Assembly (NCBI GenBank): GCA_005881275.1
Contig: VBEF01000018.1
Span: forward strand, 1-63,764
Direction of reading: 5' to 3'
Source: Chloroflexota bacterium
Lineage (GTDB): Bacteria; Chloroflexota; Dormibacteria; Dormibacterales; Dormibacteraceae
Length of the DNA stretch: 63,764 bases
Shown here: piece by piece, positions 30,401-31,705 of the stretch
How the letters are laid out: each line of letters opens with the position of its first letter
Position numbering within the stretch: the stretch's first letter is position 1
Notes under the pieces: generated by a model
Databases searched by the model: none
Told to the model about the DNA's origin: nothing
What the model saw: only the letters and a program-made list of their open reading frames with translations
Translations under genes and position numbers: made by a program

Positions 30401-30445
30401 GCGCACGCACCCGCGTTAACGCTTTGGGGGCGTGCGCGTTTTCTT
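30401..30445 (+). terminator. Intrinsic terminator after the MHS transporter gene
   Basis: GCGCACGC (30401-30408) pairs with GCGTGCGC (30430-30437) around a 21-base loop, whose ends also pair CCC with GGG, followed by GTTTTCTT. The second arm overlaps the GTG of the following small frame. Confidence 0.75.
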
Positions 30446-30632
30446 CGTCTTCAACATCTTTCTGTGGGTCGTCCTGTTCCTGGCGTGGCTGCCGTACACC
30501 GCGCTGATGGGCCTCGCCGATCCCGTGAGCACCGACGTGCGATTCATTCTCTCCGTCACGGCGGCGCTCCTCATCCTCCAGGGGTTCGTGCGGCACCGCC
30601 GCGCGAGAAGCCGGAAGCAGCTGCTCACCTAG
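30432..30632 (+). CDS. Small two-helix membrane protein
   Basis: A 66-residue protein with two strongly hydrophobic segments (FVFNIFLWVVLFLAWLPYT and STDVRFILSVTAALLILQGF) and a basic tail (RHRRARSRKQ), a composition unlikely by chance in this GC-rich DNA. GTG at 30432 lies in the terminator stem, with a G-rich stretch just upstream as a possible ribosome-binding site. Expression would need read-through or a start inside the hairpin. No homologue recognised. Confidence 0.5.
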   Translation: MRVFFVFNIFLWVVLFLAWLPYTALMGLADPVSTDVRFILSVTAALLILQGFVRHRRARSRKQLLT

Positions 30633-30666: not shown

Positions 30667-31029
30667 TTGGTCCTGCTTTTCGACGGGACTTGAGGTGTTT
30701 GAACACGCATGGCGCGCTGGGTCCGCCGGCGCGACCGGGCCGGCCGTGTGCTGGTCGTCGCCAACCAGAATTCCGGAGTCCTCGAACGCTACGGCGTCAC
30801 ACGCGAGGAAGCGGACCGCGCCGCCTGGACCGTCGGTCGAAACGGCAGCCGGCTCGAGGGCGCGGCCGCGATCAACCGGGTGCTGAAAGAGCTCGGCGGC
30901 GGCTGGCCGGTGCTGGCAGCGTCTTATCGATTGCGACCGCTGGCGGCCCTCGAAGAGTCTTTCTATCGCTGGTTCGCCAGGAATCGCTCCCGGTTCCACC
31001 GGTTCGGTGTGACACCCGAGCGTGAGTGA
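30667..31029 (+). CDS. DCC-family (DUF393) thiol-disulfide oxidoreductase-like frame with TGA at both motif cysteines (candidate selenoprotein)
   Basis: The frame from TTG 30667 reads MVLLFDGT, TGA (30691), G-V, TGA (30700), T-R-M-A-R-W-V, then an uninterrupted DCC-family body: RDRAGRVLVVANQNSGVLER, LEGAAAINRVLKEL and the closing LEESFYRWFARNRSRFHRFG. The DCC family begins with D-G-x-C-x-x-C-T; here each cysteine is TGA, giving a U-x-x-U layout. A hairpin (CGCGC 30713-30717, GCGCG 30729-30733, 11-base loop containing GU) begins 11 bases after the second TGA, where a bacterial SECIS would be. Reading from ATG 30709 gives 106 residues without the motif. The remainder shows no decay. No sel genes are in the window, so a double-mutated pseudogene remains possible. 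The end overlaps the next gene by 8 bases. Confidence 0.6.
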
Positions 31030-31705
31030 CCTGCTGGCGCCGGAGCACGTCTTCGCGCTGGTCGCGATCGCGCTGTCGACGGCACTCCTGGTCGTCGCGG
31101 CCCGCCGGCGGCCTGGGTCGTGGCTGAAGGTGCTTGCGGCCGTGCTCGTGGTGGACGAGGTGAGCTGGTGGTTTTTCCTACTCGGCGGCGGGCAGCCCGG
31201 CAGCCAGGTTGCGCTCTCGCTTCCGCTCCAGCTGTGCGACGTCGCGATCTTCATCGCCGCCGCGGCGTTGTGGACGCGGCGGCAGCTGGTGGTCGAGGTG
31301 ACCTACTTCTGGGGACTGGCGGGGACGATCCAGGCTCTGCTGACGCCCGACCTGCCGCAGCACTTTCCGAGCTACCCCTACTTCCAGTACTACATCGCGC
31401 ACGGAGGTGTGGTGGCGGCGGCGCTGGTGCTGGTCGTCGGGCTTGGGCAGCGTCCACGACGGTGGGCGGTGGCCAGGGTCGCCGGCCTGACGGTCGCCTA
31501 CGCGGCGCTGGTCGGATTGGTGGATGCGGTCACTGGCGCCGACTACATGTATCTGCGCAGCAAGCCGCCCACCGCCACGCTCCTCGACGTCCTCGGCCCG
31601 TGGCCGTGGTACATCCTCTCCGCCTCCGTGATCGCCGCGTTTCTCTTCGCGATCCTCGACGCGCCGTTTCGTCTACGCGAAAGGCGTGCCGAAGCGCTCC
31701 GCTGA
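31022..31705 (+). CDS. YwaF/TMEM164-type (TIGR02206) integral membrane protein
   Basis: A 227-residue protein with seven hydrophobic helices. Typical parts: LPLQLCDVAIFIAAAALWTR, TYFWGLAGTIQALLTPDLPQ, YFQYYIAHGGVVAAALVLVV and DYMYLRSKPPTATLLDVLGP. Function of bacterial members is unknown; the animal relative TMEM164 is an acyltransferase with conserved Cys and His in positions comparable to LC and AHG here. GTG at 31022 overlaps the DCC-like frame by 8 bases. The 3' end overlaps the convergent nitroreductase gene by 33 bases. Confidence 0.88.
   Translation: MSDLLAPEHVFALVAIALSTALLVVAARRRPGSWLKVLAAVLVVDEVSWWFFLLGGGQPGSQVALSLPLQLCDVAIFIAAAALWTRRQLVVEVTYFWGLAGTIQALLTPDLPQHFPSYPYFQYYIAHGGVVAAALVLVVGLGQRPRRWAVARVAGLTVAYAALVGLVDAVTGADYMYLRSKPPTATLLDVLGPWPWYILSASVIAAFLFAILDAPFRLRERRAEALR

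Follow-up and report, generated by a model that had tools for sequence, protein, structure and literature searches.

A DCC1-like oxidoreductase gene of a Chloroflexota bacterium with predicted selenocysteine at both cysteine positions of the redox motif

A gene on the forward strand of a 63,764-nucleotide stretch of Chloroflexota DNA (assembly GCA_005881275.1, contig VBEF01000018.1; hereafter, the window) very likely encodes a small, single-domain DCC1-like oxidoreductase with a U-x-x-U motif, for which one or two mRNA hairpins would recruit SelB and which would undergo a diselenol/diselenide cycle. Judging by the sequence, both active-site cysteines have very probably been replaced by selenocysteine (Sec). 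A preliminary description of the window had put forward such a U-x-x-U selenoprotein candidate, and this proposal gained support from the presence of the Sec machinery, the recurrence of the in-frame TGA codons in relatives, the exchange of Sec and Cys among these relatives and a SECIS-like hairpin.

When TGA is read as Sec (U), the DCC1-like coding frame (30667-31029, + strand; 120 residues) reads LVLLFDGT-U-GV-U-TRMARWVRRRDRAGRVLVVANQ... through FHRFGVTPERE, followed by the terminal TGA at 31027-31029. The first inner TGA (U1; 30691-30693, + strand) corresponds to residue 9 and the first motif cysteine, and the second (U2; 30700-30702, + strand) to residue 12 and the second motif cysteine; no other TGA precedes the end of the frame. 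With Cys placed at both TGAs, the translated product matched PF04134 (Pfam DCC1-like) at positions 1-111 of the 113-position profile (E 2.8e-20), with the score of 74.1 bits exceeding the gathering cut-off of 27.8 bits; the only other Pfam match was a sub-threshold one to DUF1491. Both places of the PF04134 redox-motif pair are kept in the window gene, as TGA, and are found in the Cys form in relatives. The frame and the full-length profile match thus confirmed the earlier statement that the TGA codons fall on the two motif cysteines and nowhere else.

The start codon proposed earlier, TTG 30667, is the sole ATG, GTG or TTG that precedes the first TGA without an intervening in-frame stop, the nearest such stop upstream being at 30526. 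In several relatives, however, Met or Val is encoded in frame 4-6 codons before the place of this TTG, such that the start of the window gene is uncertain. Translation could also be imagined to begin after both TGAs, at ATG 30709, so that the DCC protein would be shortened and lack the motif. This codon, found 6 nt after the second TGA, opens a 106-codon ORF that a gene caller would report, at the cost of the active site, and that matches PF04134 only at positions 14-111 (48.0 bits). Nonetheless, a start at this site was rejected as highly improbable, given that several relatives offer no start codon there (TTG, CTG, TGC, AGC, TGG, ACC or TCC being found in other relatives), that the motif region is conserved and that the upstream LVLLFDG is kept in frame.

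In the window, TGA ends 18 of the 40 long, GC3-rich and non-overlapping ORFs selected by a simple filter. Because TGA is therefore an ordinary stop codon here, recoding, a pseudogene and sequencing error are all unlikely, and genome-wide recoding of TGA was rejected on the same grounds. A related explanation, namely that a residue different from Sec is inserted at TGA through recoding or by a suppressor tRNA, would likewise leave the frame open, as would any sense reading of TGA. It is, however, very unlikely in light of that stop codon usage, the position of the inner TGAs on cysteine codons (TGY in relatives) and the presence of a tRNA-Sec.

The UGA-tolerant search for DCC genes covered 61 genomes of near relatives and 400 genomes of one phylum. 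Among the near relatives, homologues were detected in 31 of the 61 genomes, with the 33 matches representing 32 genes when two end-of-contig pieces in one genome (G003) are taken as a single gene. These genes encode the motifs U-x-x-U (17), U-x-x-C (4), C-x-x-U (4) and C-x-x-C (7). Chance placement of the TGAs is excluded because 17 of the 32 related genes have both at the same codons. In the window's genus, the gene was found in 15 of 17 genomes (12 U-x-x-U, 2 U-x-x-C and 1 C-x-x-C); U-x-x-U, U-x-x-C and C-x-x-C are hence all held by one genus, with C-x-x-U being held by a sister group. In the phylum sample, 107 of the 400 genomes contained a homologue at E 1e-8. A set of 50 motif-bearing sequences from this sample, comprising mainly stop-flagged members and high-scoring loci rather than a random selection, and leaving out L036 (no motif) and L156 (truncated), included 21 U-x-x-U, 5 U-x-x-C, 6 C-x-x-U and 18 C-x-x-C forms. 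The U-x-x-U forms were distributed over several Chloroflexota families (f1, f3, f41, f83, f52 and f28 in the numbering of the search). Within the best 80 of 99 loci, the 57 loci L081-L137 were all C-x-x-C, as read with two patterns, one of which demands Cys. When a 45-row tree was considered, in which 12 of the 42 inner branches are well supported, changes between Sec and Cys numbered at least 7 at site 1 and at least 10 at site 2. Two distant U-x-x-U homologues, L158 (G353) and L159 (G146), branch off separately and have a GGU loop 17 nt downstream of the second TGA; they perhaps reflect an independent gain of two Sec residues.

Relatives thus keep the frame in the manner anticipated, with TGA at these two codons only, or else with TGC or TGT there. 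Those bodies of relatives that were read contain no stop ahead of the natural end, and codons are constrained. Most near relatives possess a second pair of cysteines at the C-terminus, of the PECDEPGxxC type; in the window (31010-31029) and in G001, this tail is cut off, with the remaining Cys having become Arg in the window. This shortened tail, and the fact that the assembly is a draft metagenome-assembled genome (MAG), could be taken to mean that the gene is a pseudogene or the product of a sequencing or assembly error. Such an origin was rejected as scarcely credible, since these TGAs are found again in many separate assemblies and no premature stop interrupts the bodies read.

It could also be that the product is a selenoprotein in which only one UGA is decoded efficiently as Sec, the other mostly terminating translation or taking another residue. 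The two UGAs are separated by 9 nt and have a single stretch of RNA structure in common, and U-x-x-C and C-x-x-U relatives show that a single Sec is enough in some lineages. Still, U-x-x-U is the commonest state among the near relatives and occurs across several families, leaving decoding of one UGA only with a slim chance. Insertion of Sec at both positions is accordingly the reading considered below.

The genome containing the window (G000; 127 contigs, 86.4% complete) was found to include selA (504.7 bits; cut-off 267.9), an adjoining selB (341.3 bits; cut-off 242.25), selD (287.7 bits; cut-off 125) and a tRNA-Sec (69.3 bits; gathering score 47) that was called tRNA-SeC, with anticodon tca, by ARAGORN. 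As such, the Sec machinery presumed by the preliminary description is present. The selD gene itself contains one in-frame TGA and reads HGAGUACKL at this point, which is taken here to be the Sec site of SelD; this gene (G000:C118:19484-20254; L055) represents at least one more selenoprotein candidate in the genome. In some relatives (L179, L189 and L196), selD is found in a Cys form.

Across the 61 genomes, selA, selB and selD exceeded their cut-offs in 51, 49 and 51 instances, respectively. Among draft MAGs with a Sec-type gene, no match over the cut-off was obtained for selA in G001, G007 and G012, for selB in G001, G007, G008 and G012, or for selD in G003, G006, G017 and G024. One of these, G007, is listed as 95% complete and contains a DCC gene of the U-x-x-U type and a selD with a TGA, without selA or selB over the cut-off; an assembly gap is probably responsible. 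In G043, which encodes a C-x-x-C homologue, neither selA nor selD was matched and no selB exceeded the cut-off. Of seven further genomes with Sec forms, selA over the cut-off was detected in six (G244, G342, G146, G237, G348 and G366) and not in G353 (77% complete). As selA was also detected in 10 of the 12 other genomes of the same comparison (11 with C-x-x-C, and G125, in which the motif was not read), the Sec machinery permits Sec forms and does not predict them.

RNA structure downstream of the TGAs was also considered. As given in a recent review (PMC13188914), the bacterial SECIS model calls for a loop of 3-9 nt with G in the first two loop positions and a stem of 4-16 bp, located 16-37 nt after the UGA and with an energy of -7.5 kcal/mol or lower. 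The hairpin reported earlier after the second TGA (hairpin A; 30713-30733, + strand) is real, consisting of an 8-bp stem (30713-30720 paired with 30726-30733) and the loop GUCCG (30721-30725), but a second and more strongly conserved hairpin (hairpin B, addressed below) had been missed. Hairpin A, the loop of which starts 18 nt downstream of U2 and 27 nt downstream of U1, has an energy of -14.9 kcal/mol and fits the model; 3-4% of 300 synonymous versions of the window sequence do as well.

A qualifying hairpin after the second codon was found in 17 of 20 U-x-x-U, 3 of 5 U-x-x-C, 6 of 6 C-x-x-U and 6 of 18 C-x-x-C sequences, corresponding to 26 of 31 Sec forms as compared to 6 of 18 Cys forms, where L166 was left out as being too short and close relatives are not independent of each other. 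Those five Sec forms in which no such hairpin was found are L024, L030, L035, L014 and L164. Counting from the first codon instead gave 17 U-x-x-U, 3 U-x-x-C, 6 C-x-x-U and 2 C-x-x-C sequences. In 25 of the 26 passing Sec forms, L018 being the exception, the loop begins with G and starts 16-18 nt downstream of the second codon. All six sequences of the C-x-x-U branch share an identical 21-nt segment, within which lies the hairpin GCGCUG-GGUC-CAGCGC. When energies were compared to those of synonymous versions, only 9 of 20 U-x-x-U forms ranked in the best 5%, with the median standing at about 6% for U-x-x-U and 59-69% for C-x-x-C forms; the mean energy z of hairpin A was -2.13 for U-x-x-U, -1.56 for U-x-x-C, -1.37 for C-x-x-U and -0.35 for C-x-x-C. 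The minimum energy of the whole 60-nt stretch was uninformative (mean z of -0.50 to -0.56 for Sec forms and -0.05 for Cys forms), placing hairpin A in register 38 (63.0% of cells paired) led nowhere, and a search of Rfam at the site returned two matches at chance level and no known element.

Hairpin B (30739-30755, + strand) comprises a 6-bp stem (30739-30744 paired with 30750-30755) and the loop CGUGU (30745-30749; CGGGU in L151), in which G precedes U or G in keeping with the SECIS model. It is positioned 42 nt downstream of U2 and 51 nt downstream of U1, beyond the 37-nt limit of that model. The hairpin is built by codons 25-29 (30739-30753; GCC GGC CGT GTG CTG), which are nearly frozen in U1-bearing forms. 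Indeed, when codons for the same residue were compared across eight divergent groups (protein identity as low as about 50%), leaving out L158, L159 and L164, agreement at these five codons was 1.00, 1.00, 0.75, 1.00 and 1.00, as against 0.40 for codons 31-120. The corresponding values in Cys forms were 0.50, 0.21, 0.19, 0.37 and 1.00, the last reflecting 9 comparisons. Single columns elsewhere (D6, A16 and Y42) also reach 1.00, yet no other run of five codons does so.

Hairpin B is absent from the distant L158, L159 and L164 and from all six C-x-x-U forms, where hairpin A stands alone. Mean z values for hairpin B were -1.28 for U-x-x-U, -1.70 for U-x-x-C, 0.44 for C-x-x-U and 0.01 for C-x-x-C. 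The consensus fold reached -14.57 kcal/mol for 22 of 26 U1 forms, -13.54 for all six C-x-x-U forms and -1.02 for 11 of 18 C-x-x-C forms, although divergence alone weakens a consensus and the C-x-x-C set is the most divergent of the three. Covariation was weak: 92.2% of cells were paired, relative to 25.6-53.2% with slid partners, yet 205 of 500 shuffles also reached 92.2%. The sole C-x-x-C member found in the window's genus (L026, from G010) is without four codons at the place of hairpin B.

Because main-group U-x-x-U and U-x-x-C forms have hairpin B and the six C-x-x-U forms lack it, hairpin B could be tied to the first Sec, with hairpin A serving the second. Such a doubled or bipartite SECIS is offered tentatively, and is on present evidence rather doubtful. 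Were it true, two elements would serve a pair of UGAs separated by 9 nt; the near-frozen hairpin B provides a clear test of how a bacterium reads such a pair. In class relatives (L170-L178 and L180), selD presents two consecutive hairpins 3' of its TGA. The second of these has GGUC or GGUU in its loop, about 32 nt downstream of the TGA, and the arrangement may parallel the hairpin pair of the DCC gene. The idea that selD contains the same second hairpin as the DCC gene did not hold for every member.

An AlphaFold2 model (40 rows) of the window protein, with a mean pLDDT of 77.4 falling to 50-61 over the last 40 residues, places a strand at residues 2-5, followed by the motif and then a helix at residues 10-22. 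Foldseek returned no match to this model at E 0.001 (best E 0.18), with weak matches including glutathione S-transferase (GST), thioredoxin and glutaredoxin-2 chains. When solved structures were searched by sequence, the best match was to a photosystem I chain (E 0.0036), and no significant match to thioredoxin (E 0.46) was obtained.

The 3' end of the DCC gene overlaps by 8 bases a gene for a TMEM164-like membrane acyltransferase (31022-31705, + strand; TIGR02206, PF14808). Among the 50 loci searched, 14 have this gene immediately downstream, either overlapping or adjoining; these 14 all belong to the window's genus, in which it is a constant neighbour, and include the C-x-x-C locus L026. One might guess from this neighbour that the DCC protein is linked to membrane lipid chemistry. 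Upstream, between an MFS transporter gene and the DCC gene, lies a small hydrophobic ORF of 66 codons (30432-30632), whose proximity to the DCC gene is conserved within the genus.

Based on the family and the motif, the protein is likely a diselenol/diselenide oxidoreductase, assumed here to be cytosolic; the thiol-disulfide oxidoreductase activity that the family name implies is putative. In the mechanism proposed, SelB bearing Sec-tRNA-Sec would be recruited during translation by one or two hairpins located approximately 10-55 nt downstream of the second UGA, with Sec being inserted at both UGAs. Sec9 would then attack a disulfide, a peroxide or a similar substrate, with Sec12 resolving the intermediate. 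The oxidised protein would presumably contain an intramolecular diselenide, to be reduced by a cellular thiol or the thioredoxin system. Diselenides have a low potential and Sec is resistant to over-oxidation; a lower potential and such resistance would be the gain over C-x-x-C. With U-x-x-U, U-x-x-C, C-x-x-U and C-x-x-C all existing as natural variants, the contribution of each selenium atom would be measurable.

These findings point to the novelty of a DCC1-like protein in which Sec replaces one or both of the motif cysteines, belonging to a family absent from the catalogue checked. If so, the DCC family would join the selenoproteins, in soil bacteria of the Dormibacterota/Chloroflexota. Literature searches, covering few subscription papers and no preprints, revealed no paper linking selenoproteins or selenocysteine with DUF393, DCC or Dormibacter. 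No fitting selenoprotein model was found in NCBIfam, with only sub-threshold matches for the window protein and one sub-threshold match among four relatives, and assignment to a known NCBIfam selenoprotein model was hence rejected.

In terms of known systems, SelL is reportedly a Prx-like U-x-x-U selenoprotein. Selenoproteins of this type share two Sec residues in one redox motif with the window protein, yet rely on another domain (PF00578), to which the window protein gave no match in Pfam at E 0.1. In marine metagenomes, the Prx-like 2 family is described as comprising U-x-x-U selenoproteins with U-x-x-C members (PMC2398784). Table 1 of the 2026 review lists 119 prokaryotic selenoprotein families or subfamilies, in which U-x-x-U appears for Prx-like (PF00578), metal-binding NF041115 and FmdB-like proteins, and DCC/PF04134 does not figure in that table (PMC13188914). 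U-x-x-U is also noted for SELENOW of algae and amphioxus in another report (PMC7539508). NF041115, FmdB-like proteins and SELENOW thus share U-x-x-U with the window protein, which matches none of those NCBIfam models. Thioredoxin and glutaredoxin are listed as Sec families with a U-x-x-C redox motif (PMC13188914). They resemble the window protein in having a redox motif, situated before helix 1 in the AlphaFold2 model of the latter, and differ in containing a single Sec rather than two and in showing no significant sequence or fold match to it. The DCC1-like thiol-disulfide oxidoreductases (PF04134) resemble the window protein over nearly the whole sequence and present DGxCxxC at the same place, with relatives having C-x-x-C where both motif cysteines of the window gene are TGA.
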